Virus record (IMG/VR): IMGVR_UViG_3300042892_001369
Location: 1-64,000 of that record
Reading direction: 5' to 3' (one strand)
From: a virus
Length of the DNA stretch: 64,000 bases
Of the stretch, positions 8,791-39,200 are shown piece after piece (the first letter of the stretch is position 1; each line of letters opens with the position of its first letter). The position numbers and the translations under genes are program-made. The notes beneath the pieces are model-generated. The model worked only from the letters and a program-made list of their open reading frames with translations. It made no database searches and was not told the DNA's origin.

Positions 8791-11010
8791 TTATATTATT
8801 TTTGAAGTATTGCCATTATTGTCGTATTTCTTAAAATTCAAAGGCACTGCTCTTTTCTGTACCTCGTAAACAGGAGAGTACAGATGCCTATTACATGCCA
8901 TTATAGCTAAGCCCGAACTAATAGAGGCGTCATGCTTTGTTCTATCATTGATATTAAACCTTGCCCAGTCATTTAGTGTCTTTTGAAAATACATATCTCC
9001 GTGATAATCACCTTGGATCCCAACATAGTTTTCTATATATGTTTCAATTGCTGCTGCGTGAGCTTGTATAATATCTTGACCTGAGTTAGGTATACCACCA
9101 ATTTCTTTTTCTGTTGGTGATAATTTGTTCCATGTTTTATCTGGTCTATTCATTGAAAAACCTCTATATCCTCTTCGCTTAAAATAATATAACAATCGAG
9201 CTTTATTATTCTCTGCTAATATAGGCATACCATAAAACACACAAGCCATTAATACTTCTTCAAAGAATATTTCTGCCGTTTGTGGTCTGGCTACATATTC
9301 AAGAAAGAAATGGTTTGCGGGTATGTTTTCCATTGAAAATTTTGTTAACCCATGTAAAGCTCCATTAGAACCTCTTGTGTCAACTGTTCCTGATATATCA
9401 TAACTATCACAGCCAAAAGCACCACAGTGCTCATTACCAGGATATTTGATACCATCTTTTATTATTACGCGGTTTTGCAAGTATTTATCGGGAACCCAGC
9501 TAATTAAGAATCTTCCATCTTGGCTTGGGTAAAATATTACTTTTGAATCTTGTATTCCGTTTTCCCATTGAAAACTTCCACGAGTAATAACATTTGTATT
9601 TCTTAAATCATCGTTATAATCAATCTGCTCATATATCTTTGTCAAATTGAATAATGATTGTTTTGTTTCGTCTCTAAAAGCGTGTTGTTCTGTTCTTGGG
9701 AACTGACGGTAATATTCATTTAATGCATCAGAATCGCCTTTTAAACCTTCAACTTCATTTTGCCAATGCTCAATTACTCCTGTTTCAATCCAGTTACCAT
9801 CAACCCCTTTTATTGGTTTTGACGGAGTATCGAAGACAGGTAAGCCATAAGTATCAATGAATCCCTCGTACGACCATTCCATAGGTATGAACAAACTATA
9901 TAATCCTGAAGCAGTCTGTCCATTGCGGTTTCTTTTCGTAACATCTGAATTGTAATAAAGTTTCTTAAAGTTTTCTCCTCCTTTATCTAAAGCATTTGAT
10001 GTTGATCCCATCATACACTTACCGATAATTCTCGATCCTAATCGTAAACAGGTCTTAGTAACACGCCAGTTATTTAATATATTATCAGGTCGTTCCCATT
10101 TACCACTTTCATCATGTACCAGTAACTTTAACTTTTCACCATCATAGGAGTTGTCCCCTGTGTTCTTCCAGTCAATAGTTGTATCTAATCCATCTAACTC
10201 TTCTAACTTTTCATTAGTATCGAGTTTTTTACGTGTAAGCTTTGACGCAGGTATTCTATATGCTAATTCTGTTTTTGGTCTATCCATACCATCTTGGATA
10301 GGTTTAAAAAAGAATGGGTAATTTATAGATATTGGCACTACTTTGTCTGTGAACATCTTTTTAGCATCTGCCCCTGACTTAGAAAGTATACCGTATCTGG
10401 AATCGCTTGATATAGTTGCTTGATTAACTAGCTCAGCAGATGACATAAATGAAAACCCGGAACGTCTATTCTTTAAATAAGACATACCGTAACATCTATT
10501 ATCTGCTTTACAAGCTTCCCAGAATATAAAGAACAATCTATTAGATTCTCTGAAATCTGGTGCACCAATATCTATCTTGCTCCATTGCAAGTACATGTAG
10601 TGTGTCCCTGTTATATAAGTAGGTTTCCCATTATTATAAAAAGCAAAACCTTCTTCTCTATACTTAAATTCTTGATCGATGTAATCATACCAGTGCTCTT
10701 TAAAAGCTTCCGGGTATTTATTCCAATCAAAAACATTTTTTATTTTTGATATTTCTTTTGGAATTTCTAATTGTTCCCAATATTGATCTTCCTGTTTATT
10801 AGATCTTTTATATGCTCCATCTATTAAAGGTAAAGCAATTTTAAGATTCTGTATTTCGTATATTTCACCAATCTTTCCAGTCTTACTAATAACAACAACA
10901 TCATGTTCCCGGTTATATCCGTATTCCCATTTGTTGTGTCTATTCTTTTGCTTTATTATATTAGGTCTAATATGATCGGTAATTTCTCTATATAAAGTTT
11001 GTTCGTACAT
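8791..11010 (-). CDS. terL: terminase large subunit
   Basis: 739 aa. ATPase part: a deviant Walker A, KNRRSGFSF, near residue 183 and a Walker B/catalytic block LLVHDESGKW near residue 298. The nuclease part begins around residue 535 with FGCDSYD, a plausible first metal-binding Asp of an RNase H-like domain, followed by ILAENN and RRGYRGF. Packages DNA into the prohead through the adjacent portal. Starts within one base of the upstream 91-aa gene (overlapping stop/start). Confidence 0.85.
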   Translation of the reverse strand: MYEQTLYREITDHIRPNIIKQKNRHNKWEYGYNREHDVVVISKTGKIGEIYEIQNLKIALPLIDGAYKRSNKQEDQYWEQLEIPKEISKIKNVFDWNKYPEAFKEHWYDYIDQEFKYREEGFAFYNNGKPTYITGTHYMYLQWSKIDIGAPDFRESNRLFFIFWEACKADNRCYGMSYLKNRRSGFSFMSSAELVNQATISSDSRYGILSKSGADAKKMFTDKVVPISINYPFFFKPIQDGMDRPKTELAYRIPASKLTRKKLDTNEKLEELDGLDTTIDWKNTGDNSYDGEKLKLLVHDESGKWERPDNILNNWRVTKTCLRLGSRIIGKCMMGSTSNALDKGGENFKKLYYNSDVTKRNRNGQTASGLYSLFIPMEWSYEGFIDTYGLPVFDTPSKPIKGVDGNWIETGVIEHWQNEVEGLKGDSDALNEYYRQFPRTEQHAFRDETKQSLFNLTKIYEQIDYNDDLRNTNVITRGSFQWENGIQDSKVIFYPSQDGRFLISWVPDKYLQNRVIIKDGIKYPGNEHCGAFGCDSYDISGTVDTRGSNGALHGLTKFSMENIPANHFFLEYVARPQTAEIFFEEVLMACVFYGMPILAENNKARLLYYFKRRGYRGFSMNRPDKTWNKLSPTEKEIGGIPNSGQDIIQAHAAAIETYIENYVGIQGDYHGDMYFQKTLNDWARFNINDRTKHDASISSGLAIMACNRHLYSPVYEVQKRAVPLNFKKYDNNGNTSKII

Positions 11011-15436: not shown

Positions 15437-15693
15437 AGAACTATTACAACGTCTTGTAATCTTATAACTTGATATTCATGCCCGTCAAATTCAATTCCAT
15501 GACCTGCAGCTTTATCATAGTAAATAACATCAGCTTCTTTTAAACATTTAATATCTTCACTAACAGAAACTACAATAGCTTCTTTATATCTAATGTTTTC
15601 TTTATCTTTTTCTTTTAATAATAAACCATTTTCCGTTTTTGATAATCCCTCTTTCCTTGGGAGGATCACTATATTATTACCTATTGCCTTCAT
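15433..15693 (-). CDS. groES: GroES-type co-chaperonin
   Basis: 86 aa. AIGNNIVILPRKEG at the start, GLLLKEKDK in the place of the mobile loop, VVSVSED, then DVIYYDKAAGHGIEFDGHEYQVIRLQDVVIVL: a complete GroES barrel with the terminal QDVV strand. It caps GroEL and follows it directly, overlapping by 17 bases, as an operon. The mobile-loop consensus GGIVL is degenerate, suggesting it is tuned to the phage GroEL next door. Late expression points to folding of virion proteins. Confidence 0.85.
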   Translation of the reverse strand: MKAIGNNIVILPRKEGLSKTENGLLLKEKDKENIRYKEAIVVSVSEDIKCLKEADVIYYDKAAGHGIEFDGHEYQVIRLQDVVIVL

Positions 15694-17239
15694 TGATTCT
15701 TAAATTATTAATTATACAATCAGTTGACAATATGGTAATAGCTACAGAAGCTGCATTCATTAATGCACTTTTTGTAACAGATAATGGATCAATAATACCC
15801 GCTTCAATCATATTAACTTCTTCTCCAGTTACAGCATTCAATCCAGAGCCATCTGGACGACTTGCAGTTGAACTTGGTATATCAATACCCGCGTTAGTTA
15901 ATATTGTCTTAAACGGAGCCGTAATAGCTTTTAACAACGCTTCTTCAGCTTTATTCTTGAATACAATTATTCTTGATGCATCTAAAAGAGCAATTCCTCC
16001 TCCCGGAACAATTCCTTCTTTAATAGCTGCTTTAGTTGCGCAAATTGCATCTTCAACTCTATCTGCTTTTTCTTTTAATTCAATATCAGATCCAGCACCC
16101 ACTTTTACTACTGCTACTTTTGCAGATAATCTAGCTAATCTTCTTTCTATTCTAATTACTTCAGCCGGTGGTAAGCTTGCTTCTAATTGTGATTTTAATT
16201 CATCAATTAAAACTTGAACTTCTTCTTTTGTTTCACCAACATGCAATATAGTCTCTGTATCACTAGTTATTGCTTTTAAACAATGACCTAAACAATCTGT
16301 ATCAATAAGATCCATATCATCTCCTAAGTCCTCATTTATAATAGTAGCACCTGTTAACAATGCTAAATCCGATAATGTATCTTTTTTATTAATACCGTAC
16401 GTCGGGGCATTAATCACATTTACTTTAATATTACCTTTTACTTTATTCATTGCAAGAGCGGCTAATACTGTCGGCTCTATGTCTGCAATAATAAGTAATG
16501 GCTTGTTTGCTTTTATAACGTATTCTAAAACCGATTGTATTTGTCTTATAGATTCAACTGGTGATTCAATAAGCAATACTAATGGATTTTCTAATTCAGC
16601 AACTCTTTTGTTAGGATTAGTAATAAAATGTGAATTTACTAAACCTTTATCATATTGGACACCATCAATAATTTCTATTTCCGTTTCTGCATTTGCCGAT
16701 GATTCCATCATAACAATTCCGGTTTCACCCACCTCTCTAAATGCATCTGCAATAATCTTTCCAAGTACTGGATCATTATTAGTTGAAATCGTAGCAATGT
16801 GATCTATCATATCTCCATTTACAGGAACTTTAATAGATTCTAAATATTCTACTACTTTGTCAACTGTTTGTTCAATACCGTTCTTTAAGTCTCTTGCATT
16901 AACTGTATCTTGGACTGCGTAAGCTTCTTGTAAAATAGCATGAGCTAATACTGTTGCAGTTGTTGTTCCGTCTCCGGCTTCTTTAACTGTTTTTCTAGCT
17001 GCTTCTTTTAAAAGTCTCGCACCCATATTTTCAACTGGATCAAGTAGTGTAATGCTGTCTGCTACTGTAACACCGTCTTTTGTAATAATCGGCCTACCTT
17101 TTCCGTCTTCTAGCATTACACATTTTCCACCCGCTCCAAGTGTTGAACTAACTGCTTTTGTAAGTTTCTCGATACCTGCAAAAACATTGTCCCTCGCCTC
17201 TTTGCCGAAGCTGAGGTTTTTAACTATTTCATCGCTCAT
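15677..17239 (-). CDS. groEL: GroEL-type chaperonin
   Basis: 520 aa versus about 548 in E. coli. Conserved ATP site AGDGTTTATVLA near the N-terminus, LGAGGKCVMLED, the apical domain in the middle, and VKVGAGSD and RVEDAICATKAAIKEGIVPGGG (hinge/ATPase aspartate in VEDA). The C-terminal Gly-Gly-Met repeats are missing; it ends INEGNR. It assembles a folding chamber with GroES, presumably for capsid or tail proteins. Start ATG is followed by DEIVKNL. Codon and base usage look like neighbours, so any capture is old. Confidence 0.95.
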   Translation of the reverse strand: MSDEIVKNLSFGKEARDNVFAGIEKLTKAVSSTLGAGGKCVMLEDGKGRPIITKDGVTVADSITLLDPVENMGARLLKEAARKTVKEAGDGTTTATVLAHAILQEAYAVQDTVNARDLKNGIEQTVDKVVEYLESIKVPVNGDMIDHIATISTNNDPVLGKIIADAFREVGETGIVMMESSANAETEIEIIDGVQYDKGLVNSHFITNPNKRVAELENPLVLLIESPVESIRQIQSVLEYVIKANKPLLIIADIEPTVLAALAMNKVKGNIKVNVINAPTYGINKKDTLSDLALLTGATIINEDLGDDMDLIDTDCLGHCLKAITSDTETILHVGETKEEVQVLIDELKSQLEASLPPAEVIRIERRLARLSAKVAVVKVGAGSDIELKEKADRVEDAICATKAAIKEGIVPGGGIALLDASRIIVFKNKAEEALLKAITAPFKTILTNAGIDIPSSTASRPDGSGLNAVTGEEVNMIEAGIIDPLSVTKSALMNAASVAITILSTDCIINNLRINEGNR

Positions 17240-28399: not shown

Positions 28400-28451
28400 G
28401 TATAGCACTTACAGACTTAGTACGAAGAGTATTTGATAATATAAATGTAAC
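28400..28451 (+). promoter_or_regulatory. early promoter P2
   Basis: TGTATAGCACTTACA, TACGAAG and, 12 bases from TACG, TTGATAATATAAATGTAAC. Leads to the 60-aa gene at 28466. Preceded by GC-rich GAGCGGAGCGAG repeats. Confidence 0.8.
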
Positions 28452-28465
28452 TAAAATAAATAACT

Positions 28466-28648
28466 ATGATATTAAAAATTAATAAAAATTTCAGATCAAT
28501 TATTACTAATCAATTAATTAATTCAAATAAATTAAACTTTGAATTTAAAATTCTAAACTCAAATTTATTAATCAATTCAAAAGATCTTGAAGAAGTTGAT
28601 AAAATATTAAATAAAAACTTTCACAAATATAAAGTTCTTACAAAGTAG
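28466..28648 (+). CDS. hypothetical small protein
   Basis: 60 aa, Asn/Lys/Leu/Ile-rich (SIITNQLINSNKLNFEFKI). Single gene between promoters P2 and P3. No recognisable motif. Confidence 0.5.
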   Translation: MILKINKNFRSIITNQLINSNKLNFEFKILNSNLLINSKDLEEVDKILNKNFHKYKVLTK

Positions 28649-28680
28649 ATACGAAGAGTAATTGATAATATAAGTGTAAC
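28637..28680 (+). promoter_or_regulatory. early promoter P3
   Basis: CTTACAA, TACGAAG, then TTGATAATATAAGTGTAAC at the fixed 12-base spacing. Overlaps the 3' end of the preceding gene and leads to the 51-aa gene at 28695. Confidence 0.8.
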
Positions 28681-28694
28681 TAAAAATAAATAAT

Positions 28695-28850
28695 ATGAAT
28701 AGAATAGATCAATTAATATTAAATAAATATCCGGATCAATTAGATCAAATCAAAGATAAAATAGAACTATTAAAACTAGACTATGATCAAGATCAATTTC
28801 TTGAAGAAGATATAATAGAATCTATATTAATAGAACTAGATATAATATAA
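28695..28850 (+). CDS. 51-aa acidic hypothetical protein
   Basis: Read directly: ATG at 28695, TAA ending 28850. Helical and acidic (YDQDQFLEEDIIESILIELD). Sits between promoters P3 and P4, which supports it as a gene in spite of its size. Function unknown. Confidence 0.6.
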   Translation: MNRIDQLILNKYPDQLDQIKDKIELLKLDYDQDQFLEEDIIESILIELDII

Positions 28851-28894
28851 TCTACAAACCTAATACGACTAGTAATTGATAATAATAATGTAAC
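28851..28894 (+). promoter_or_regulatory. early promoter P4
   Basis: CTACAAACC, TAATACGACTAG, then TTGATAATAATAATGTAAC at the 12-base spacing. Leads to the gene at 28909. This copy has the TAATACGAC word that starts the T7 promoter; the remainder differs. Confidence 0.8.
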
Positions 28895-28908
28895 TAAAAA
28901 TAAATAAT

Positions 28909-29145
28909 ATGAAATTCTTAGAAAAACAAATCAAAACAAAAAAAGACATTAAAGACTATATTGATAATTTAGTAATTAATAATATGATGTATCATTTTGA
29001 AGACGACTCAAGAGACATACCGGCTTTTGAATTAAGACTAACTCAAGAACAACTTGATCTATTAGATATAAGATCAACCGAAATGTTAAATGTTAATTAT
29101 AACTACACATTTGACTATGCTTGTAAAGTACTAGAAATTGATTAG
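28909..29145 (+). CDS. hypothetical early protein
   Basis: 78 aa, helical, with DNLVINNMMYHFEDDSRDI and ELRLTQEQLDLLDIRST. Single gene between P4 and P5. No family recognised. Confidence 0.55.
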   Translation: MKFLEKQIKTKKDIKDYIDNLVINNMMYHFEDDSRDIPAFELRLTQEQLDLLDIRSTEMLNVNYNYTFDYACKVLEID

Positions 29146-29148
29146 TAT

Positions 29149-29200
29149 GCTATACATCTCTACAGACCTAATACGAAATGAATTTGATAATATAAATGAA
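29149..29200 (+). promoter_or_regulatory. early promoter P5
   Basis: GCTATACAT, CTACAG, TAATACGAAATG and TTTGATAATATAAATGAA at the 12-base spacing. The upstream word is TGCTATACA, the reverse complement of the TGTATAGCA seen at P2, P7 and P8. Leads to the 121-aa gene. Confidence 0.75.
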
Positions 29201-29229
29201 TATAAATAATAACTTAAATAAATAAAATT

Positions 29230-29595
29230 ATGAAAACTAAAGTAACAAAAATCGAAGAAGTAGTTGTAACAACTAAAACAAACAAAGAATTATTAGTTGA
29301 AGCAATCGCAAGTTTATCACAAGAACAATTGGCTCTAATCTATCCGCCAATACAAAGAGCTAACTTTGTAGTAAGAAAGTCGTGGCTAGGTCGCAATCAA
29401 GTAATCACTTTTGTAAACAACAAAAATCAAAAAGTTACTTACAATCATGACGAAGTATTGAATGTAATGCTACCTAAGCTATCTATCATGCCATGTTGGA
29501 TTAAGCGTGAGTATTGGTCACAATCAACTGATATGCCGGCTAATGTTAGACATCTAGCGACTATCGAACAACTGGAAGTTGCAGCGGCTGAATAG
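29230..29595 (+). CDS. hypothetical early protein
   Basis: 121 aa with LVEAIASLSQEQLALIYPPIQ, SWLGRNQVITFVNNKNQKV and a C-terminal ATIEQLEVAA. Probably nucleic-acid or protein-binding; no family recognised. Own promoter P5. Confidence 0.55.
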   Translation: MKTKVTKIEEVVVTTKTNKELLVEAIASLSQEQLALIYPPIQRANFVVRKSWLGRNQVITFVNNKNQKVTYNHDEVLNVMLPKLSIMPCWIKREYWSQSTDMPANVRHLATIEQLEVAAAE

Positions 29596-29652
29596 CCGTT
29601 GTAGCCCACGGGGGTAACCTCAACACGCTGTAATCATTGAGCCTCTGCGAAT

Positions 29653-29704
29653 GCTATACATTTACAGTGTAAATACGAGATCAAAATGATAATATAAATG
29701 TAAC
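29653..29704 (+). promoter_or_regulatory. early promoter P6
   Basis: TGCTATACATTTACAG, TACGAGATC and ATGATAATATAAATGTAAC; first T of the TTG is A, otherwise consensus, spacing 12. Leads to the small gene at 29720. Confidence 0.75.
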
Positions 29705-29719
29705 TAAAATAAATATACT

Positions 29720-29881
29720 ATGAGAAATTTAATCAATGCAATCGAATTACAACAAGAAAAATTACAAGCTTTAAAAATAGTACTTGCTAATATAAACACG
29801 GATGATCCAAACCAATCTACATCCGACTTCTTGAAAGAATTAAATATGAAAATTGTAAACCTAATAATAACCGACTTCTAA
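29720..29881 (+). CDS. 53-aa hypothetical protein
   Basis: Read directly from ATG 29720 to TAA 29881. Helical, with NLINAIELQQEKLQALKI. First gene of a small operon (29720-30428) behind promoter P6; the next gene starts two bases after its stop. Confidence 0.6.
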   Translation: MRNLINAIELQQEKLQALKIVLANINTDDPNQSTSDFLKELNMKIVNLIITDF

Positions 29882-29882
29882 T

Positions 29883-30059
29883 ATGAGAACTGAAAGAATA
29901 CAATTTGAATGCGCTTACGGTTACGGCTATATTGATATAACCAATCGAGGTGATGAAAGAAACACAACATACGAGATAATCATTGAAGATACTTACAGCG
30001 ATGCAACCGAGGATGATGTTATAAATGAAATAAAGATAATTATAAATGAATTGATATGA
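29883..30059 (+). CDS. 58-aa hypothetical protein
   Basis: Read directly: ATG 29883, TGA 30057-30059. Starts TERIQFECAYGYGYIDIT and ends in an acidic helix. Overlaps the next ATG (30056) in ATGA fashion, so translation is probably coupled. Function unknown. Confidence 0.6.
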   Translation: MRTERIQFECAYGYGYIDITNRGDERNTTYEIIIEDTYSDATEDDVINEIKIIINELI

Positions 30060-30202
30060 TAAAAACTAAAACCCAACGCCGAGCCGAGTACGTGCAAGCG
30101 TGCTACAAAAGCGGATCACTCGAATCATACATCGAGCAAAGACTAAACAAACTAAATAATAACCCAGTAAAAGTAACTAAAAATGAAAACACTAGAAAGT
30201 AA
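30056..30202 (+). CDS. 48-aa basic hypothetical protein
   Basis: Read directly: ATG 30056-30058, TAA ending 30202. Sequence is basic and helical (KTKTQRRAEYVQACYKSGS). Overlaps both neighbours by a few bases, supporting translational coupling. Function unknown. Confidence 0.55.
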   Translation: MIKTKTQRRAEYVQACYKSGSLESYIEQRLNKLNNNPVKVTKNENTRK

Positions 30203-30428
30203 CATCATCGCATTGGCAGTATTAAGCTTCTTTGGGGGCGTAACGTTAACAATAGTAATGGGAAACGTATACAACCGTGAAGAATTGCTCAGACAAGAAG
30301 AAAATGAGTTTAAAAACCAAGGTCACACGTTCATTTGGAATGATGATTGGGAATCTATTCCAGCTGAGGGTTATGTAAAGATCGATATGGTTGAGGGTAA
30401 TACAATTTATCTAGCGCCTAGCGAATAA
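30183..30428 (+). CDS. membrane-anchored small protein
   Basis: 81 aa: one membrane segment (IIALAVLSFFGGVTLTIVMG) near the N-terminus then an acidic soluble domain (VKIDMVEGNTIYLAPSE). Last gene of the P6 unit. May act at the host inner membrane, for example in superinfection exclusion; inference. Confidence 0.55.
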   Translation: MKTLESNIIALAVLSFFGGVTLTIVMGNVYNREELLRQEENEFKNQGHTFIWNDDWESIPAEGYVKIDMVEGNTIYLAPSE

Positions 30429-30430
30429 AA

Positions 30431-30443
30431 CACCCGCAGGGTG
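30431..30443 (+). terminator. small hairpin after the P6 operon
   Basis: CACCC GCA GGGTG perfect stem directly after the stop codon, without a U-tract and abutting promoter P7. Weak terminator or RNA-processing signal. Confidence 0.4.
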
Positions 30444-30488
30444 TATAGCATACAGCCCTAACACGGTTGTTTTTTGATAATAATTATG
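30443..30488 (+). promoter_or_regulatory. early promoter P7 (drives no evident gene)
   Basis: GTATAGCATACAG, CACGGTTG and TTTGATAATAATTATG at the 12-base spacing. What follows is not an ORF but a structured sequence, so this copy probably makes a non-coding RNA. Confidence 0.7.
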
Positions 30489-30625
30489 GGTCTGGCTCTG
30501 AAATAAGGTCGAAAGAGTAGACTCCGTCCTACACGATAGTTTCTGGGCTCACCGAACCGTATAAGATCAAAAAAAAAGGTGACGTTAGCCTATTATATTA
30601 TATACTTAAGACCCTAATGTCACAC
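30488..30625 (+). ncRNA. candidate structured small RNA
   Basis: Starts at the expected first base of promoter P7 with GGGTCT, GG, CTCT, a 14-base loop (30500-30513), AGAG, T, AGACTC: a 6+4-bp stem with one wobble. Then TACACGATAG-type small hairpin and GGGCTCACCGAACC. It ends at the inverted repeat 30579-30623 with TTTT, which could serve as its terminator. No matching ncRNA family is recognised by me. There is no start codon with a credible ORF. Confidence 0.45.
30579..30623 (+). repeat. 44-bp inverted repeat, copy 2
   Basis: GTGACGTTAGC, AT-rich centre, CCTAATGTCAC; same architecture as copies at 27650-27693 and 36950-36993, followed by ACTTTTCC. Either an operator or the terminator of the RNA from P7. 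Confidence 0.6.
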
Positions 30626-30667
30626 TTTTCCAAATACTCGGGTCGCCACGGCCCCCCAACACACCGT

Positions 30668-30716
30668 GTATAGCACTTACAAGCATAATACGAGCTCAAT
30701 TTGATAATATATTTGA
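30668..30716 (+). promoter_or_regulatory. early promoter P8
   Basis: GTATAGCACTTACAAG, TAATACGAGCTC, TTTGATAATATATTTGAA, spacing 12. The next 120 bases hold only an 8-codon ATG frame and end in GGGGGTTATATATACATT and a T-run, so its product may be a short RNA. Confidence 0.75.
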
Positions 30717-30854
30717 ATAAAATGACCGATTCTAGTCAATCAAAGTAATAAATGTACCATATTTTGGTGTAAATGTGTTGTTTTGAGTAACAAACGTAGA
30801 GATAGGGGGTTATATATACATTACTTTTTTTTCTTATAAATAAAGTGCAACCTT

Positions 30855-30898
30855 CTTACGGTCTTGATACGAATTGGATTTGATAATATAAGTGTAAG
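30855..30898 (+). promoter_or_regulatory. early promoter P9
   Basis: CTTACGG, TACGAATTGG, TTTGATAATATAAGTGTAAG at the fixed spacing. Leads to the short genes at 30923 and 31048. The gap 30429-30922 holds P7, the candidate RNA, repeat copy 2, P8 and P9, and otherwise no gene that I can support. Confidence 0.8.
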
Positions 30899-30922
30899 TA
30901 TAACAAACTAATATAAACGATT

Positions 30923-31021
30923 ATGACGAATTATTCTAGAGCCTTTAGGGTGGTATTATTAAAATTGAAATTTGAGCTCTTAGAGGGTGCTAAAAACGCT
31001 GCTTGGGCGATGAGAAACTAG
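30923..31021 (+). CDS. 32-aa hypothetical microprotein
   Basis: Read directly: ATG 30923-30925, TAG ending 31021. Basic helix (FRVVLLKLKFELLEGAKNAA). Very short, but directly behind promoter P9 and spaced like other leaders. Could be a leader peptide or real microprotein. Confidence 0.4.
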   Translation: MTNYSRAFRVVLLKLKFELLEGAKNAAWAMRN

Positions 31022-31047
31022 TATTTAACAATTAAAAAGTAATTAAT

Positions 31048-31170
31048 ATGGAAGAATATAGCGATTGTTGTGGTGCAAGTAGACACCATATATTTGATGA
31101 GTTGTGTGGAGATTGTTTAGAACATTGCGAATTTACGGATTGGGATGGAGAAGACGATATACAATCTTAA
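31048..31170 (+). CDS. 40-aa zinc-ribbon-like protein
   Basis: Read directly: ATG 31048-31050, TAA ending 31170. CCGASRHHIFDELCGDC followed by EHCEF: paired Cys of a small zinc ribbon. Similar mini zinc-ribbon proteins are common in phage early arrays. Partner unknown. Confidence 0.65.
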   Translation: MEEYSDCCGASRHHIFDELCGDCLEHCEFTDWDGEDDIQS

Positions 31171-31201
31171 TACGAATTGAGTTTGATAATAAATGTGTAA
31201 C
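31159..31201 (+). promoter_or_regulatory. early promoter P10
   Basis: TATACAATC, TAATACGAATTG, TTTGATAATAAATGTGTAAC, spacing 12. Overlaps the 3' end of the zinc-ribbon gene and leads to a long run of overlapping genes from 31217. Confidence 0.8.
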
Positions 31202-31216
31202 TAAAAAAGATATAAT

Positions 31217-31441
31217 ATGAATTTAGATTTTAAAAAATTGAGTGTGAGTGACCAAGTTAAAGCGGTTGAAAATGTGATTAGGCTTGATAGTATTAACTAC
31301 TTATGCTACTTAATCGGTAACGGTGAAAAATCACACGATGTGTATGGGTGGTTTGTATTAGGTGATAGCTTAGAAGGTGACCAATATTGGTATGATGTAA
31401 GAAACGAAATAACTAAAAGCGAAACAAATGAAAAAGTTTAA
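31217..31441 (+). CDS. hypothetical early protein
   Basis: 74 aa (KKLSVSDQVKAVENVIRLD, YGWFVLGDSLEGDQYWYD). First gene of the P10 operon; overlaps the next by 14 bases. No family recognised. Confidence 0.55.
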   Translation: MNLDFKKLSVSDQVKAVENVIRLDSINYLCYLIGNGEKSHDVYGWFVLGDSLEGDQYWYDVRNEITKSETNEKV

Positions 31442-31619
31442 TGGATTTGAAGCTCACTTATTAGAGGAGGGTTTAAAAAGATATGTCGAGGCTATCGTCG
31501 ATGACATTATTACGGCGGAACACAAAGGTAAACGTCCTATCATGACGGCGGATTATGTTCGTATGATTGAACGTGAGACATTAGAAAAATTAAAAAGTTT
31601 AACTCTAAAACAAAAGTAA
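31428..31619 (+). CDS. hypothetical early protein
   Basis: 63 aa, helical, mixed charge (LLEEGLKRYVEAIVDDIITA; ending LKQK). Overlap with previous gene and one-base spacing to the next indicate coupled translation. Unknown. Confidence 0.55.
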   Translation: MKKFNGFEAHLLEEGLKRYVEAIVDDIITAEHKGKRPIMTADYVRMIERETLEKLKSLTLKQK

Positions 31620-31620
31620 T

Positions 31621-31887
31621 ATGAATAAAATAATAAGTTGTGAGAGTGTGTATTGGTGTGAAGGTGATGACCGTTATGTACGTGTGTTCCAATTAGGCGA
31701 TGAAATTACCGGTATCAACTTCATGCAAGGTGATGATTATGAATTATTCAACGATGACTACCAAGGTATCGATGAAGACTTAACAAACTTTTTCCACGCT
31801 ACAAAAAATCATTTGAGTGGCGACACTAGAATTGAGCGTATTAACCAAGCGATTTGGGCGTGGTTTGACTATAAAAATAACTACTAA
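31621..31887 (+). CDS. acidic hypothetical early protein
   Basis: 88 aa, acidic (YWCEGDDRYVRVFQLGDEI; ELFNDDYQGIDEDL). Single base from the previous stop. Acidic small early proteins may mimic DNA; no further evidence. Confidence 0.5.
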   Translation: MNKIISCESVYWCEGDDRYVRVFQLGDEITGINFMQGDDYELFNDDYQGIDEDLTNFFHATKNHLSGDTRIERINQAIWAWFDYKNNY

Positions 31888-31897
31888 AACGAGTAAT

Positions 31898-32071
31898 ATG
31901 AAAGAGTATAATATTGAAGTGTGCGAAACACTTATAAGAATAGTAACCGTTGAAGCAACGAGTGAAGAACAAGCATTAGAGTTTGTACGGTATGATTATA
32001 ACAATGCGGAATTAGTATTGGATAGCGATGACTTTTTTGATGTGGATTTTGAAATTGTAAATAGAGATTAA
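31898..32071 (+). CDS. DpnD/PcfM-like small protein
   Basis: 57 aa from the preferred ATG 31898-31900 (KEYNIEVCETL); the longer frame from 31817 overlaps the upstream gene and adds unlikely residues. VTVEATSEEQALEFVRYDY, VLDSDDFFDVDFEI is the DpnD/PcfM pattern of a small beta-alpha fold. Function of that family is not well defined; often in mobile elements. Confidence 0.6.
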   Translation: MKEYNIEVCETLIRIVTVEATSEEQALEFVRYDYNNAELVLDSDDFFDVDFEIVNRD

Positions 32072-32072
32072 T

Positions 32073-32276
32073 ATGAATATAGAAATAACAAAGATTGAAG
32101 CAAATGTAATTCAAGTGGCGCTTGACCACCTATACGAGATGCATAGAGAAATAGTAACCGAAGCATTATGTGATAATGATTCCGAAACCGTACGATTTTC
32201 GTCTCACGTGTTAAGTAATATCACAGAGATACAAGAAGAAATAAAATATAAATTAACTTTAGAAACGGATAAATAA
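32073..32276 (+). CDS. hypothetical early protein
   Basis: 67 aa, helical (ALDHLYEMHREIVTEALCDN). One base from the previous gene; one-base overlap with the next ATG (TAATG). Unknown. Confidence 0.5.
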   Translation: MNIEITKIEANVIQVALDHLYEMHREIVTEALCDNDSETVRFSSHVLSNITEIQEEIKYKLTLETDK

Positions 32277-32560
32277 TGAAACAAATAGTAAACACAGTAA
32301 GTACAATAGATTTTAGAGATATAACTAACAATTCGTTTGTTGGTATTGCTTTTGGTCATGACCATAAAGCTATGGTTATTCGAGTAGAACGAGATAAGTT
32401 CATGAGTTTAAGTAACCACAGTTATTGCAATCTACTTGATTGTTGGGATTCAACTACAATGCAAAGTTATATCTCTAAAGCCTTGAGTCAAGGTGATTAT
32501 GTTAAAGCATACGCTTTTAATGATATAAAAGAATTATTAACTTGGTTAACACTTGAATAA
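32276..32560 (+). CDS. hypothetical early protein
   Basis: 94 aa (NNSFVGIAFGHDHKAMVIRV; SYCNLLDCWDSTTMQ). Mixed alpha/beta, no known motif. Coupled with neighbours. Confidence 0.5.
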   Translation: MKQIVNTVSTIDFRDITNNSFVGIAFGHDHKAMVIRVERDKFMSLSNHSYCNLLDCWDSTTMQSYISKALSQGDYVKAYAFNDIKELLTWLTLE

Positions 32561-32561
32561 T

Positions 32562-32900
32562 ATGGCAAATAAAATAACAATGGATTCGGTACATGCTTTT
32601 GTAATAGGGAGGCCGTTTTGTAGACAGAATATGGAGGTAACCGCTAATGACAACGGCGTATACTTAAAACTACACGGTAATGTAATAGCGAGACGTGACC
32701 GTGAAAATGGTGCGGTGTTTATTAGTAATTGTGGTTGGTCTACTAACACAACTAAGATGCGGTTGAATTACTTGCTATACATGTATAACTCGCCCTTCAA
32801 AATCACCCAAAAGAATTGGGTATGGTATCTTGGTGATAAGCAATGGGAAGGCGGTAAGACCTATATATATGATGAGGCTTACAAAGTTAATACGAATTAA
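32562..32900 (+). CDS. hypothetical early protein
   Basis: 112 aa from ATG 32562-32564. VHAFVIGRPFCRQNMEVTA, VIARRDRENGAVFISNCGW and ITQKNWVWYLGDKQWEGG: a compact beta-rich protein. Its 3' end carries promoter P11. Function unknown; nucleic-acid binding possible. Confidence 0.55.
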   Translation: MANKITMDSVHAFVIGRPFCRQNMEVTANDNGVYLKLHGNVIARRDRENGAVFISNCGWSTNTTKMRLNYLLYMYNSPFKITQKNWVWYLGDKQWEGGKTYIYDEAYKVNTN

Positions 32901-32921
32901 GATTGATAATATAAATGTAAC
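32878..32921 (+). promoter_or_regulatory. early promoter P11
   Basis: CTTACAAAG, TAATACGAATTAAGA, TTGATAATATAAATGTAAC, spacing 12; close to the consensus of the whole family. Overlaps the end of the previous gene and leads to 32939. Confidence 0.85.
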
Positions 32922-32938
32922 AAATAAAAATTATAATT

Positions 32939-33241
32939 ATGAATACAACAGGTAAACTAGACAAATTGATCGAAAGTAAAGTAGATCAAAAGATTAGAGA
33001 ATTTTCAACTAAAATAACTAGTCAAATAAAAGACTTTCTTGTAGAAAATGGTGACTATAACGGCGACAGCTTATATCAAGCAAACGGGTTTGACCAAGAA
33101 TATCGCCCTATAGATTATAAGTCAATGAAAATGTACACTATGAATAGTAATCTTAGAGGTGGTTTAGAATTAACCATAAAACAAAATATGATTGATAGAG
33201 CAACAAAAGAATTATTAGAAAAAGTAGAATTATTATCTTAA
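32939..33241 (+). CDS. hypothetical early protein
   Basis: 100 aa, helical N-terminus (KLIESKVDQKIREFSTKI), then QANGFDQEYRPID. No family recognised. First of the P11 unit. Confidence 0.5.
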   Translation: MNTTGKLDKLIESKVDQKIREFSTKITSQIKDFLVENGDYNGDSLYQANGFDQEYRPIDYKSMKMYTMNSNLRGGLELTIKQNMIDRATKELLEKVELLS

Positions 33242-33254
33242 AACAAATATAATT

Positions 33255-33503
33255 ATGGTAAAGTTAAACGAAACAAAAAGCAAAGAAAAGTTATTAATGC
33301 GCGACTTAAAAGACGGTCAGATAGCAATAATTGTTGATGATAATTACCACGGGTATAAAGGTAGAATAGTACAAAGATACGGTATCGAGGCTTTAACTCT
33401 AGGCATGAGCTCAGGAAATGGGTGGACAGATATTCAAAACAATACTTTAGAAGTAAGATTATTAGAAGACGGAGAAACATTAACAATATTTGATAACGAA
33501 TAA
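33255..33503 (+). CDS. SH3-like/KOW-like small protein
   Basis: 82 aa. QIAIIVDDNYHGYKGRIVQRY followed by ALTLG looks like a KOW or SH3-type barrel (YxGxIVxR). Possible RNA or protein binding. A reversed frame over the same bases is a shadow. Confidence 0.5.
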   Translation: MVKLNETKSKEKLLMRDLKDGQIAIIVDDNYHGYKGRIVQRYGIEALTLGMSSGNGWTDIQNNTLEVRLLEDGETLTIFDNE

Positions 33504-33514
33504 AAATTATAACT

Positions 33515-33724
33515 ATGGCAAGAATTAAATATCGAGGTGAAGGAATAGAAGTTGAATATAATCTTTATGGTGATTATTACGCAGCTACTAATGATAGTCA
33601 AGAAGAATACCCGGATGTAATTATTGATGCAGTATATTATAATGAAGTTAATATACTACCATTATTAAGCTACGAAGATCAAGAAGAAATAAGTGAAACT
33701 TTAATTGACTATTTATATGGATAA
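33515..33724 (+). CDS. acidic hypothetical early protein
   Basis: 69 aa; YRGEGIEVEYNLYGDYYAAT and a Glu-rich tail (EDQEEISETLIDYLYG). Overlaps the next gene by 8 bases. Unknown. Confidence 0.5.
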   Translation: MARIKYRGEGIEVEYNLYGDYYAATNDSQEEYPDVIIDAVYYNEVNILPLLSYEDQEEISETLIDYLYG

Positions 33725-33872
33725 TGCAGAAAAATTTAATGAATGGATGAAGAGTAAAGTGCAAAGTTATTATTACTCAAACAACTTAGAAATGTTAAAC
33801 GCTTTTAATACAATGACAGATAAAGATGGAAGAAACTATAGCCCACCGCGTACACTTAAAAGCATTAGCTAA
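33717..33872 (+). CDS. 51-aa hypothetical protein
   Basis: Read directly: ATG 33717-33719, TAA ending 33872. EKFNEWMKSKVQSYYYSNN and NTMTDKDGRNYSPPRTLK. Overlaps both neighbours, in line with the operon style here. Confidence 0.5.
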   Translation: MDNAEKFNEWMKSKVQSYYYSNNLEMLNAFNTMTDKDGRNYSPPRTLKSIS

Positions 33873-34041
33873 AGTAACAACTCTTATGTTCGATATTAGA
33901 GAATGTAAAGAAGATTTAAAATGGGATAATGGCGATGGCCCATTAACCACAGAACAATTACAAAGTTGCTTGCGTCACACTGAGCGTGAGTACGATATAT
34001 GGAATTATATACTTAAAATAACAGCAAATGAAAAAAATTAA
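33826..34041 (+). CDS. hypothetical helical protein
   Basis: 71 aa, KALAKVTTLMFDIRECKEDLK and TEREYDIWNYILKIT. Overlaps 47 bases with the previous gene and 14 with the next. Unknown. Confidence 0.5.
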   Translation: MEETIAHRVHLKALAKVTTLMFDIRECKEDLKWDNGDGPLTTEQLQSCLRHTEREYDIWNYILKITANEKN

Positions 34042-34207
34042 ATTTTTAAAGAACAACTTAATCCGCCTAAATGGCGTGCTATACACACCTTATCTTGTTG
34101 GCGATCTGCCACAACGATTCGGATTTATTTATAACGAAGACAAAGAGCAAGACGGTATTACCTCTTGGTTTAACTTCAAAGGATTTACTTATGTAGTTAA
34201 GGAATAA
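34028..34207 (+). CDS. 59-aa basic hypothetical protein
   Basis: Read directly: ATG 34028-34030, TAA 34205-34207. Basic N-terminus (KKIKFLKNNLIRLNG), later WFNFKGFTYVVKE. Ends exactly at promoter P12. Unknown. Confidence 0.55.
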   Translation: MKKIKFLKNNLIRLNGVLYTPYLVGDLPQRFGFIYNEDKEQDGITSWFNFKGFTYVVKE

Positions 34208-34251
34208 CTTACAAACATAACACGATTAACAATTGATAATATTAATGTAAC
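34208..34251 (+). promoter_or_regulatory. early promoter P12
   Basis: CTTACAAAC, AACACGATTAAC, TTGATAATATTAATGTAAC at spacing 12. Leads to 34269. Confidence 0.8.
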
Positions 34252-34268
34252 CAATAAAAATAAAAATT

Positions 34269-34625
34269 ATGACACAAGATCAAAAAACTCTATTTGAAGT
34301 ATCAATTTCAAAAGTAAACAACTCTGCTAGCAGTATCTTTTCTAAAGATGACGTGATTGGCTTATTAACAACATTAGAATCATGCATCGCCGATTCACCT
34401 AAAGAAACAGGTGTTAATTATGACTGTGATGCAATTGTGCGAGCATTCAACGACATATTTGATGAATATGATTTCGATGAATTTGTATCTTTTGAACCTG
34501 AGCTATGTGGATCATACGGCAGTAGCTATTCACTTGAAATAAACCACAGCTTTGATGACAGTGAACTTAGAAGATGTATTATTAACGACCTAGAAAAATA
34601 TTTTTCACCTAACGAACCAGAATAA
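34269..34625 (+). CDS. hypothetical early protein
   Basis: 118 aa, Ser/Asp/Glu-rich (STSKDDVIGLLTTLE-like N-terminus; DEYDFDEFVSFEPELCG). Possibly a conserved early phage protein; no motif I can name. Confidence 0.5.
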   Translation: MTQDQKTLFEVSISKVNNSASSIFSKDDVIGLLTTLESCIADSPKETGVNYDCDAIVRAFNDIFDEYDFDEFVSFEPELCGSYGSSYSLEINHSFDDSELRRCIINDLEKYFSPNEPE

Positions 34626-34626
34626 T

Positions 34627-34878
34627 ATGAATGCAAAACAAATTAAAGATTATATAGAAAATACTTTAGGTCAAACACCTAGACATGACTGTAGTGCATT
34701 AGCAAAAGCTATAACAAAAGCAAGTAAACAATTTGATCAAAATGAATTTGATATGCTGTATCTATTATTAGAAAACTCACCGATCGATAGTTACACCCAC
34801 AGTTATGGCTTTCATACCGCATACGGCAGAGAACTTATAAATACCATGCAAGATTATTATTATAAATATAACCAATAA
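34627..34878 (+). CDS. hypothetical early protein
   Basis: 83 aa (KQIKDYIENTLGQTPRHDC, YSFHTAYGRELINT-like region). Two-base gap to the previous gene. Unknown. Confidence 0.5.
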   Translation: MNAKQIKDYIENTLGQTPRHDCSALAKAITKASKQFDQNEFDMLYLLLENSPIDSYTHSYGFHTAYGRELINTMQDYYYKYNQ

Positions 34879-34889
34879 AAAATAAATAT

Positions 34890-35165
34890 ATGAACACAAT
34901 TAAAACAGTAGAAGATTTCAAACAATTCGTTGGTGACAACGGCAAATTATTTAGTGTAACATTCACAAAGCTTGACGGATCTGAAAGAAAAATGGTTGCA
35001 CGATTAGATGTAAAAAAATATCTTAAAGGCGGTAACACACGTTACAATCCAGCATCTCGTAACAATATTATAGTATTCTCAATGAAAGACGACGCCTACC
35101 GTACGATCAGCATTGATAGACTATTACGAGTTAAAGCATTTAATACTACCATACAAGTTGGGTAG
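34890..35165 (+). CDS. SH3-like conserved phage protein
   Basis: 91 aa. TFTKLDGSERKMVARLDVKKY, LKGGNTRYNP, IIVFSMKDDAYRTISIDRL: a small beta-barrel family I have seen repeatedly in phage early regions. It is thought to be a nucleic-acid or protein-binding fold; function not known. Confidence 0.6.
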   Translation: MNTIKTVEDFKQFVGDNGKLFSVTFTKLDGSERKMVARLDVKKYLKGGNTRYNPASRNNIIVFSMKDDAYRTISIDRLLRVKAFNTTIQVG

Positions 35166-35206
35166 TTACAAAGATAATACGAATACTAACTGATAATATA
35201 ATAAAC
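35166..35206 (+). promoter_or_regulatory. early promoter P13 (weakest copy)
   Basis: TTACAAAG, TAATACGAATAC, CTGATAATATAATAAAC. The TTG is CTG and the distal TGTAAC is degenerate, but spacing 12 is kept. Leads to 35215. Confidence 0.65.
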
Positions 35207-35214
35207 TAAACAAT

Positions 35215-35646
35215 ATGAACTTACAAACATTTTTATCCGAAGTATTAAAAAATAATGGTGGTAGTTATAATATAACAACTGGTGAATCAAATCCAACTGA
35301 CGGTTATATGGTATCATTACCAAATTGTGAAGAGATCTTTAATGCTGATGACTTATGCGCTACTGTGTTAAGCGAATATATAATCGATAACGCCGATGAA
35401 TTATCTTCAGAACATAGTTTTGTAGGTTTATGGATTGATAATGGTATGGTCTATCTTGATGTGTCAGTAAAGTATGATGATCTTGAAACCGCTTGTTATG
35501 TTGGTATTATTAACGATCAAAAAGCAATCTACGATAATGCAAATGCGGTTGCTATACACCTGCCAACTCCGCAACGATCTGGCACAATGACGCAACAACG
35601 AACATATAATTATATGGCTGCACAAAAAGCAGCTGGATTAATATAA
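35215..35646 (+). CDS. conserved early phage protein
   Basis: 143 aa. NITTGESNPTDGYMVSLPN, YLDVSVKYDDLETACYVG, IINDQKAIYDN, and a C-terminal TMTQQRTYNYMAAQKAAG. Family resembles conserved proteins of aquatic phages; function unknown. The last gene before the structured RNA region. Confidence 0.55.
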   Translation: MNLQTFLSEVLKNNGGSYNITTGESNPTDGYMVSLPNCEEIFNADDLCATVLSEYIIDNADELSSEHSFVGLWIDNGMVYLDVSVKYDDLETACYVGIINDQKAIYDNANAVAIHLPTPQRSGTMTQQRTYNYMAAQKAAGLI

Positions 35647-35657
35647 TCGATAATAAT

Positions 35658-35746
35658 GTTGATTTCTGGGACTACGTAAATTTATGCCGCTAAGCTCGGT
35701 TGTAGTCGAATTGCAAATAAAGAATATATCCGGTTTGCAAATCAAC
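35658..35746 (+). ncRNA. three-helix RNA domain upstream of the tRNA-like element
   Basis: GTTGATTT (35658-35665) pairs perfectly with AAATCAAC (35739-35746). Inside lie two hairpins: GACTAC / GTAGTC and TTGCAAA / TTTGCAA. A three-way junction results. Upstream, ATAATCGATAATAATG resembles the distal half of the promoter family, so transcription may begin here. The next element is the tRNA-like domain at 35751-35822. Confidence 0.5.
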
Positions 35747-35750
35747 AAAA

Positions 35751-35822
35751 GAACTAAGTCTGGTAGCCATTGAGTTGGTAACGACCGACGGGTTTTGGGG
35801 TTCGATTCCCCTTTTAGTTCCA
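35751..35822 (+). ncRNA. tRNA-like structure (degenerate tRNA)
   Basis: GAACTAA (35751-35757) pairs perfectly with TTAGTTC (35814-35820), followed by CA. A strict T-arm GGGG TTCGATT CCCC occupies 35797-35811. In between, GTTGG TAACGA CCGAC (35774-35789) makes a 5-bp stem with a 6-base loop, and a TGG-TAG-CCA mini-hairpin replaces the D arm. The total is about 72 nt, slightly short for a tRNA, with a 6-base anticodon-type loop. So it is tRNA-like, not a normal tRNA. tmRNA was considered because the 5' domain looks TGATTTCTGG-like, but the ends do not pair. Confidence 0.5.
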
Positions 35823-35831
35823 AATTAATAA

Positions 35832-35875
35832 CATACAAAACAAACACGAATATTAATTGATAATAATAATGTAAC
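35832..35875 (+). promoter_or_regulatory. early promoter P14
   Basis: CATACAAAAC, AACACGAATATTAA, TTGATAATAATAATGTAAC, spacing 12. Leads to the gene at 35891. Confidence 0.8.
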
Positions 35876-35890
35876 TAAAACAAATTAACT

Positions 35891-36334
35891 ATGAATATAT
35901 TTTATTTAGACCGCGATCCTTATAAAGCCGCGGCAAAGCACTACAACAAGCACGTAGTAAAAATGGTATTGGAAGCTGCTCAATTACTTTGTACAGCGCA
36001 TCATCTTGAAGGTAATCCAGACGACGTGCCTTATAAAAAGACACACATGAATCATCCGTCAGCAGTATGGGTACGATCATCAAAAGCAAACTATATGTGG
36101 TGCTACGAATATATGTTAGCTCTTGGTAAAGAATATACAAGACGATACGGCAAGTCTCATTTGACTATTGAGAAGTGTAGAGATATTCTATATAACATAC
36201 CAAATAAAATCAAATCTGAAGACTTCTGTGATCCTCCACAATGTATGCCGGACGAATACAAAATGGCCGATGCAGTACAAGGTTATCAAAAATATTATGA
36301 ATTTGGCAAAGCACATTTAAAAGATAAAGTATGA
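35891..36334 (+). CDS. conserved phage protein, DxxPxxAAxxHxxKHVVKM family
   Basis: 147 aa. FYLDRDPYKAAAKHYNKHVVK continues into LEAAQLLCTAHH, NHPSAVWVRSSKANYMW, and YTRRYGKSHLT. This His-rich family is common in phages and is sometimes annotated as a pyrimidine-dimer glycosylase-like protein; I cannot confirm an activity. First of a coupled set (36331 overlaps ATGA). Confidence 0.6.
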   Translation: MNIFYLDRDPYKAAAKHYNKHVVKMVLEAAQLLCTAHHLEGNPDDVPYKKTHMNHPSAVWVRSSKANYMWCYEYMLALGKEYTRRYGKSHLTIEKCRDILYNIPNKIKSEDFCDPPQCMPDEYKMADAVQGYQKYYEFGKAHLKDKV

Positions 36335-38438: not shown

Positions 38439-39200
38439 ATGAAAAGTTACAACATACCAAATTACCTTAGGTATAAAGAAGACATAGCTCGTGTTAATAA
38501 AAATAATAATGAAGCAGAATTTAAATCGTACTCAAGAGATCAACTTATAAGTAAATTCCTACCATTAGTAGAAAATATAGCCAAAAAGTTCTCAACAACG
38601 ACGCAAGCCTGTGGAGTATTAGATATTACGGATCTTATTCAGCATGGATCAATTGGTTTAATATTAGCCGTTGATAAAATAGAATGGGACACAATAGACT
38701 TGTCTGCTGATAAAGAAAAAACAATTAAGTCGTTTCTATCAAAAAGAATTAAAGGCTCAATTAGACGAGCTATAGACATCAACAGAGGTGCTATTAAAAT
38801 TCCAGAGCATAAGCTAAATGAAATTAGAAAAGACAATGGTCAAGATCATAAAATGGTTGCCATGTTTTTCAATTCCATATTCCTTAGTATCGATGAACAA
38901 ATGAATGATGATGACGAAAATATGTTGTACCAAATCCCTGATAGAACAGAGCCGTACAATATTAATATGATGAATAAGTATTTAACAGGATTGTTGAAGA
39001 AACATTTAACAGAAACGGAATACGATGTACTACGATTAAGTTATGGACTTGATTGTGATAAACATCCTGCAAATGCAATAGCAGACTATTTAGGCATCGA
39101 AGGAGCAAGTGCTTATGTTAGAATTTCTGAGATAAAAAAGCAAGCAATCGCTAAGCTAGTTGCTAACGTTGATTCCTCGCAAGTCCTTGATTACCTATAA
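38439..39200 (+). CDS. phage-encoded sigma-70-like factor
   Basis: 253 aa. Region 2: LVENIAKKFSTTTQACGVL and DITDLIQHGSIGLILAVDKI (trimmed), then FLSKRIKGSIRRAIDINRG. Region 4: YDVLRLSYGLDCDKHPANAI, YVRISEIKKQAIAKL. The family redirects host RNA polymerase. It lies just upstream of the replication genes, and the window holds a dedicated promoter family (15 copies), so it may recognise those or the late promoter. Early versus late assignment is inference. Confidence 0.85.
   Translation: MKSYNIPNYLRYKEDIARVNKNNNEAEFKSYSRDQLISKFLPLVENIAKKFSTTTQACGVLDITDLIQHGSIGLILAVDKIEWDTIDLSADKEKTIKSFLSKRIKGSIRRAIDINRGAIKIPEHKLNEIRKDNGQDHKMVAMFFNSIFLSIDEQMNDDDENMLYQIPDRTEPYNINMMNKYLTGLLKKHLTETEYDVLRLSYGLDCDKHPANAIADYLGIEGASAYVRISEIKKQAIAKLVANVDSSQVLDYL

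Follow-up and report, generated by a model that had tools for sequence, protein, structure and literature searches.

tRNA-like elements that are not used in translation have been described in several settings. The tRNA-Other of Bacillus cereus is a pseudo-tRNA that forms part of a larger regulatory RNA and is encoded by a single chromosomal gene beside a genomic island (PMC3399842). In mammals, mascRNA and the MEN beta RNA, a single family (Rfam RF01684), have a tRNA-like structure at the 3' side of another RNA, where a cut by RNase P would make the 3' end of the upstream RNA. Murine gammaherpesvirus 68 produces viral tRNA-like RNAs, which are Pol III transcripts with attached microRNAs. Phages carry ordinary tRNA genes (RF00005), often in arrays. 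GOLLD and ROOL are structured non-coding RNAs (PMC12286853); they are found in phages, often near tRNAs. Here we examined a stretch of about 165 nt in a virus of bacteria that combines a folded leader with a tRNA-like half lacking a decoding arm. Like tRNA-Other, it has a tRNA-like element as part of a longer RNA, but it belongs to a family found in phages, with a conserved three-way-junction leader and a variable arm in place of the anticodon region. The arrangement resembles that of mascRNA, whose Rfam model aligns the T-arm here (12.5 bits, far below the gathering score of 42.5), but there is no sequence or structure relation beyond the T-arm. It shares with the gammaherpesvirus RNAs a viral origin and a tRNA-like form, and with phage tRNA genes the acceptor, a T-arm slightly short of textbook and, for related elements, a position in arrays. 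However, it lacks a decoding anticodon arm and does not reach the gathering score of RF00005. GOLLD and ROOL were not matched, as Rfam found nothing in the window and nothing but tRNA in 14 related loci.

The element lies on the plus strand of the window, by which we mean the whole stretch of 64,000 nucleotides analysed here (positions 1 to 64,000 of the 64.5-kb IMG/VR record IMGVR_UViG_3300042892_001369), between a 143-aa gene (35215-35646) and a 147-aa gene (35891-36334; PHROG 624, 'DNA binding protein'). A sequence-only reading had described a three-way junction enclosing two hairpins, followed directly by a perfect 7-bp acceptor-type stem, a textbook T-arm, an atypical D/anticodon region and a CCA-like end, in a place where no protein gene fits. 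That observation is confirmed, with corrections. The enclosing stem P1 is GTTGAT (35658-35663) with ATCAAC (35741-35746); it holds hairpin P2 (35670-35707; GACTAC 35670-35675 with GTAGTC 35702-35707), which has a bulge on its 5' side, and hairpin P3 (35711-35740; TTGCAAA 35711-35717 with TTTGCAA 35734-35740). The acceptor stem is perfect over 7 bp (GAACTAA 35751-35757 with TTAGTTC 35814-35820) and is followed by C at 35821. The T-arm, GGGG-TTCGATT-CCCC (35797-35811), has the expected UUCRANN type of loop but, in place of a 5-bp stem, a stem of 4 bp plus a T-T, and is thus slightly short of textbook. The CCA-like end does not hold as a feature, as among 14 distinct copies the bases after the acceptor are CA in 9 and CT in 5. 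A 69-aa ORF on the minus strand overlaps the element; length variation of the 3' half among relatives (71, 90 and 96 nt) speaks against coding.

Taken alone, the element would be a weak case. It folds only mildly better than shuffled DNA (z -1.79, with 9 of 200 shuffles folding as well), and one tRNA-like match of this kind in the window compares with 0.27 per shuffled window, 19 of 100 shuffled windows having at least one. ARAGORN found no gene and none of the 4227 Rfam families matched the window at gathering score. The support is comparative and comes from relatives. Scanning IMG/VR with the downstream gene gave 12 loci and with the upstream gene 3 loci, one of them on the same contig as L009 (L numbers denote viral loci recovered in our searches). 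A model of the three-way junction, R1, built from six of the sequences, scored 105.4 bits on the window leader (35657-35747) and found the junction in the window, L003, L004, L005, L007, L009, L011 and L012. A pattern scan yielded 14 stretches, 7 of them in contigs already collected, and added L106, L108, L112, L115, L116, L117 and L118, while a later scan for the tRNA-like half added L290 and L292. The leader is hence present in 17 virus records including the window, with 15 distinct sequences (L108, L112 and L118 have the same leader). Three weak hits of the model, G016 (18.7 bits, in what looks like coding sequence), L093 (16.9 bits) and L138 (22.2 bits), were dropped as chance before counting; L138 remains in one alignment, which was not used for pair counts. 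Terminase relatives did not provide further leaders: of 40 whole records, 15 being the window's own and those found with the neighbouring genes and 25 coming from the terminase search, 9 matched at E <= 0.1, of which 8 were real, all 8 from the first group. A blastn search of annotated phages with the leader plus tRNA-like of L009 gave no match.

The leader is a structured RNA with compensatory changes. On a MAFFT alignment of the 15 sequences, made without the model, 91.7% of cells pair, 12 of 25 pairs have changes on both sides and 44 cells carry such changes against 13.8 in shuffles, a value reached by 0 of 500 shuffles. Compensatory changes were also seen with 13 of the sequences, and a set of 6 was examined in addition. 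The number of pair types is not above the shuffles (169 of 500 reach it), and the shuffle control overstates significance for related sequences; a slide control, which keeps relatedness, showed that moving partners by 1-3 columns drops pairing to 41.5% or less. Both-sided changes occur at 3 of 6 pairs in P1 (96.6% paired), 4 of 6 in P2 (100% paired) and 5 of 7 in P3 (76.2% paired, probably because the alignment slips in some rows). Loops are more conserved than stems, the conserved segments being CUGG, GU.AA, GGUUG, GAA and, in the P3 loop, AUAAAGAA..UAACCGG. The CUGG (or UCGG) in the junction (35666-35669) can form 4 bp with CCGG (or CUGG) beside P3 (35730-35733) in 15 of 15 sequences, but 3 of 4 pairs vary on one side only, so that a pseudoknot is possible and the evidence suggestive only. 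Directly before the RNA lies the end of a promoter-like stretch (ATCGATAATAATG, 35648-35656), which resembles the phage motif ACGAATANTAATTGATAATAATAATG. The motif ACRAATANTAANTGATAATA has 11 matches in the window against 0.98 expected, and this repeated promoter-like motif, ACGAATANTAATTGATAATA, recurs within 28422-35865 on the plus strand of a phage that also encodes a sigma-factor relative (38439-39200, PHROG 351). However, the window element carries only a partial copy, and among relatives only L011 clearly shows it; its role as a promoter is an inference.

In 16 of the 17 records a tRNA-like acceptor starts 1-5 nt downstream of the leader. This distance was measured for 13 records, of which 12 had 1-5 nt and L003 had 85 nt with another folded module between; for L112, L118, L290 and L292, coordinates give 2-3 nt. 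In 14 records the tRNA-like half is of the GAACUAA type, whereas in L004 and L011 it is of a second, tRNA-Leu-like type, AGUCAGG. In the reverse direction, a scan for the GAACUAA tRNA-like alone gave 15 stretches, 13 of them with the leader; two GAACUAA elements (L289 and L291) lack it. Within the tRNA-like domain of the window (35751-35821), the acceptor GAACUAA/UUAGUUC is invariant at 7 of 7 pairs in 10 distinct aligned copies and the T-arm shows a single G-C/G-U change; hence covariation there is uninformative and their pairing is not proven by it. A variable arm (35758-35782) replaces the D and anticodon arms and is closed by a 2-3 bp stem (35758-35759/35781-35782) with both-sided changes at 2 of 3 pairs, followed by a mini-hairpin, GACC-GACG-GGUU (35783-35794), which is 100% paired with changes on one side only. 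None of the 14 distinct copies has the 5-bp/7-nt hairpin of an anticodon arm. The acceptor and T-arm stay the same, apart from G-U changes, in copies whose leaders are down to 61% identical.

The AGUCAGG type belongs to a much larger class. A pattern scan found at least 120 viral stretches, and the loci collected contain 165 distinct elements of this type, although the acceptor, part of the D-stem and the T-arm are constant partly because the pattern itself required them. Of these, 111 have a clean D-arm end, with 33-95 nt between D-arm and T-arm and 84 sequence clusters in this interval; the other 54 were left out of the arm test. Only 2 of 111 have a canonical anticodon arm, with a 5-bp stem, a 7-nt loop and U33, against 0.6 expected after shuffling, while three ordinary tRNA-Leu genes from the same loci show one when read by eye. 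Of the 46 elements in L120-L159, ARAGORN called 18 (counted by hand) as Cys, Glu, Pro, Leu, Ser, Tyr, Gly, Ile or undetermined, which is what chance anticodons would give, and AGUCAGG elements score 32-50 bits with RF00005 in six of the 14 sources scanned. They sit beside ordinary tRNAs in several contigs, as in L196, which has 25 ARAGORN tRNAs including Leu(taa) and Leu(tag). Of 33 whole records searched with a similar pattern of another gap range, 27 matched, with 1 to 4 elements each, and 6 did not, probably because their gaps fall outside that range. The middle regions of the 111 elements fold better than shuffled ones (mean z -0.90, 12 of 111 below -2). Of seven payload families inspected, five show at least one pair changed on both sides and two none, but this evidence is weak, resting on alifold structures from 2-7 sequences each. 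Some AGUCAGG-like elements (L004:3810-3940, L010:3598-3760, L146 and L150) have an extra hairpin inserted in the D-loop (e.g., GGCTGGGGATGTCCCCGGC, GGTTGGGGACGTCCCCGAC), with apparent compensatory changes between copies. Among 163 AGUCAGG elements there was no excess of stems ending at the 5' end of the acceptor, so a folded leader is not a general feature of the larger class.

The class is mainly viral. One scan of bacterial and archaeal genomes gave 4 stretches, all in MAG contigs, and 1 of 395 Bacteroidota genomes matched, namely the MAG used as the centre of the search. The window phage is related by terminase to Flavobacterium, Cellulophaga and Tenacibaculum phages (87 records), so that a Bacteroidota host is likely, by inference. 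The window also encodes a GroEL-like protein, read by eye (15677-17239, minus strand), and the nearest annotated relative, MW202828, carries groEL plus a 10-kDa chaperonin. In the isolated large Tenacibaculum phage pT24 (L246), elements annotated tRNA-Undet and a degenerate tRNA-like stretch before them (860-1090 and 1290-1735) may belong to the same class.

A second leader, a 46-nt conserved folded module (UAGCUAAGCUGUGUAAAGC...ACUGAUAA...UAGAAGCUA), was found in 40 viral stretches. In 34 distinct places (L003:3541-3586, L006, L116, L244:3004-3049 and 30 others) it precedes AGUCAGG elements, a UCCAAAG tRNA-like in elemoviruses annotated as tRNA-Ala (10495-10570 of MT497017), tmRNA-like genes, another unnamed RNA or, in 4 of the 34, intrinsic-terminator-like hairpins; it may be a general phage RNA element, perhaps an anti-terminator. 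The elemoviruses are isolated Flavobacterium phages (host Flavobacterium sp. BAL314), in which the module lies directly before the element annotated tRNA-Ala, a leader plus tRNA-like pair analogous to that of the window. The tmRNA-like genes, in L264, L271 and L273 (e.g., GGGGCTAACAGGTTTTGACAGG in L271), are each preceded by this module and were read by eye. A longer unknown RNA beginning AGGTTAAACATTGAATACCT and containing TTACATAAAGATACTATCAGTAATGGTAGATGTGTTGTTCCCTTGAGAAAGGAAT recurs in many viral contigs (L012:3600-3930, L005, L106 and L255-L287), with no Rfam match to it in L012 or L106. Leaders and tRNA-likes are thus exchangeable parts, as is also shown by the same three-way-junction leader preceding both GAACUAA and AGUCAGG.

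Our preferred explanation, held with no more than moderate confidence, is that this is a non-coding RNA cassette of a Bacteroidota-type phage in which a conserved leader is joined to a tRNA-like module that kept only the acceptor stem and T-arm, the parts used by tRNA-processing enzymes and needed for the tRNA elbow, while the D/anticodon region was replaced by a variable arm. The analysis itself establishes the structured leader, its placement next to a tRNA-like acceptor, the absence of a decoding arm, the exchange of leader and tRNA-like type and the existence of a larger set of viral tRNA-Leu-like elements sharing the same logic. The remainder is inferred from sequence alone, including transcription, cutting, any aminoacylation and function. 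In this view, the RNA would be transcribed as part of a longer phage transcript, and host RNase P would cut before GAACUAA and RNase Z after UUAGUUCC, releasing two stable RNAs. The tRNA-like half would work first as a processing signal and RNase-resistant chassis, and the variable arm, and possibly the leader, would carry the actual function through binding of a host or phage factor, which turns over fast as expected in host-phage conflict. Four features have to be explained: strong conservation of exactly the parts that RNase P, RNase Z and the tRNA elbow use, loss of the decoding arm, a variable arm, and a separately conserved leader ending at the presumed RNase P site. A processing signal plus chassis explains all four.

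The interpretation offered by the sequence-only reading, which named an aberrant tRNA, a tmRNA relative or a new class of phage RNA with a tRNA mimic, for instance a tRNA decoy, is only partly supported. A two-domain structured RNA with a tRNA-like 3' half, best seen as an unreported class of phage RNA, is supported; a lack of compensatory changes had been set beforehand as grounds for rejection, and the 5' domain passed this test. The decoy idea is neither supported nor excluded, and we regard it as possible but unlikely. A tRNA mimic could occupy a tRNA-targeting defence nuclease, an aminoacyl-tRNA synthetase or a tRNA-modifying enzyme, and the lack of an anticodon would make it immune to anticodon nucleases. 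The missing anticodon arm beside a conserved acceptor and T-arm, the fast turnover of the middle and the viral rather than host distribution would fit such a role, and a decoy would explain the first three of the features above. However, it does not explain the conserved leader or the variable structured arms, and the acceptor and T-arm of the GAACUAA type are not a copy of a Bacteroidota tRNA 3' end (0 of 148 genomes at up to 2 mismatches), so that an origin from a Bacteroidota tRNA is not supported.

It is less likely still that the leader and tRNA-like form a cis-acting 5' untranslated control region (anti-termination, attenuation or mRNA stability) of the downstream phage DNA-binding protein or endonuclease V-like gene. 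In several relatives the RNA does lie upstream of the same gene, and the terminator-like hairpins that follow the 46-nt module in other phages fit an anti-terminator. However, a separate promoter-like motif lies between the RNA and that gene (35846-35865), another sequence or gene follows in L106, L115, L116, L117, L289 and L290, and no terminator-like site was demonstrated at the window element. A decayed phage tRNA gene next to unrelated structured DNA is very unlikely. Although ARAGORN and Rfam do not accept the element and its D/anticodon region is not tRNA-like, decay would hit the acceptor and T-arm as much as the middle, whereas the former are unchanged apart from G-U changes and the loss is the same in all 14 copies. 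A recombination cassette, in which the constant ends matter as DNA for homology or as recombinase sites, is similarly doubtful; modules do occur in many orders, but the compensatory changes in the leader and in some payloads require RNA, or single-strand, structure. The tmRNA reading is the least likely and is already largely refuted. The Rfam tmRNA model aligns the T-arm only in a permissive scan (9.4 bits, gathering 47), neither RF00023 nor RF01849 matches at gathering score, and the frame that reads ANKEYIRFANQQKN-stop in the window has an end and stop that are not conserved among 15 leaders. Furthermore, the G3-U70 pair that gives tmRNA its alanine identity is absent, as all 10 aligned copies have A3-U70. 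Neither decay nor a tmRNA explains the invariance or the leader.

While tRNA-like non-coding RNAs as such are already known, this leader family and the breadth of anticodon-less tRNA-like RNAs in phages were not found in Rfam, and literature searches (including PMC7162821 and PMC3399842) found no description of this RNA or of anticodon-less tRNA-chassis RNAs in phages, although most subscription papers and preprints lay outside their reach. A broader reading, which remains tentative, is that phages use the tRNA fold as a general chassis for non-coding RNAs: the acceptor, T-arm and sometimes D-arm would be kept for host processing and stability, the anticodon region would be replaced by many unrelated structured payloads, and conserved leader RNAs such as this three-way junction would be cut off at the same time. 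This would be a natural counterpart of the artificial tRNA scaffold, spread over viral contigs from about 4 to about 290 kb.

Phage tRNA arrays are read as translation aids or as replacements for tRNAs destroyed by defence systems. If many of their members cannot decode at all, as seen for 109 of 111 AGUCAGG elements and 14 of 14 GAACUAA elements, part of these arrays is something else: a store of fast-evolving non-coding RNAs hidden by tRNA annotation, as for the elemovirus element filed as tRNA-Ala. The leader is a new, well-defined RNA family that can be tested directly. It would also show how a phage can borrow host RNase P and RNase Z to mature non-coding RNAs.
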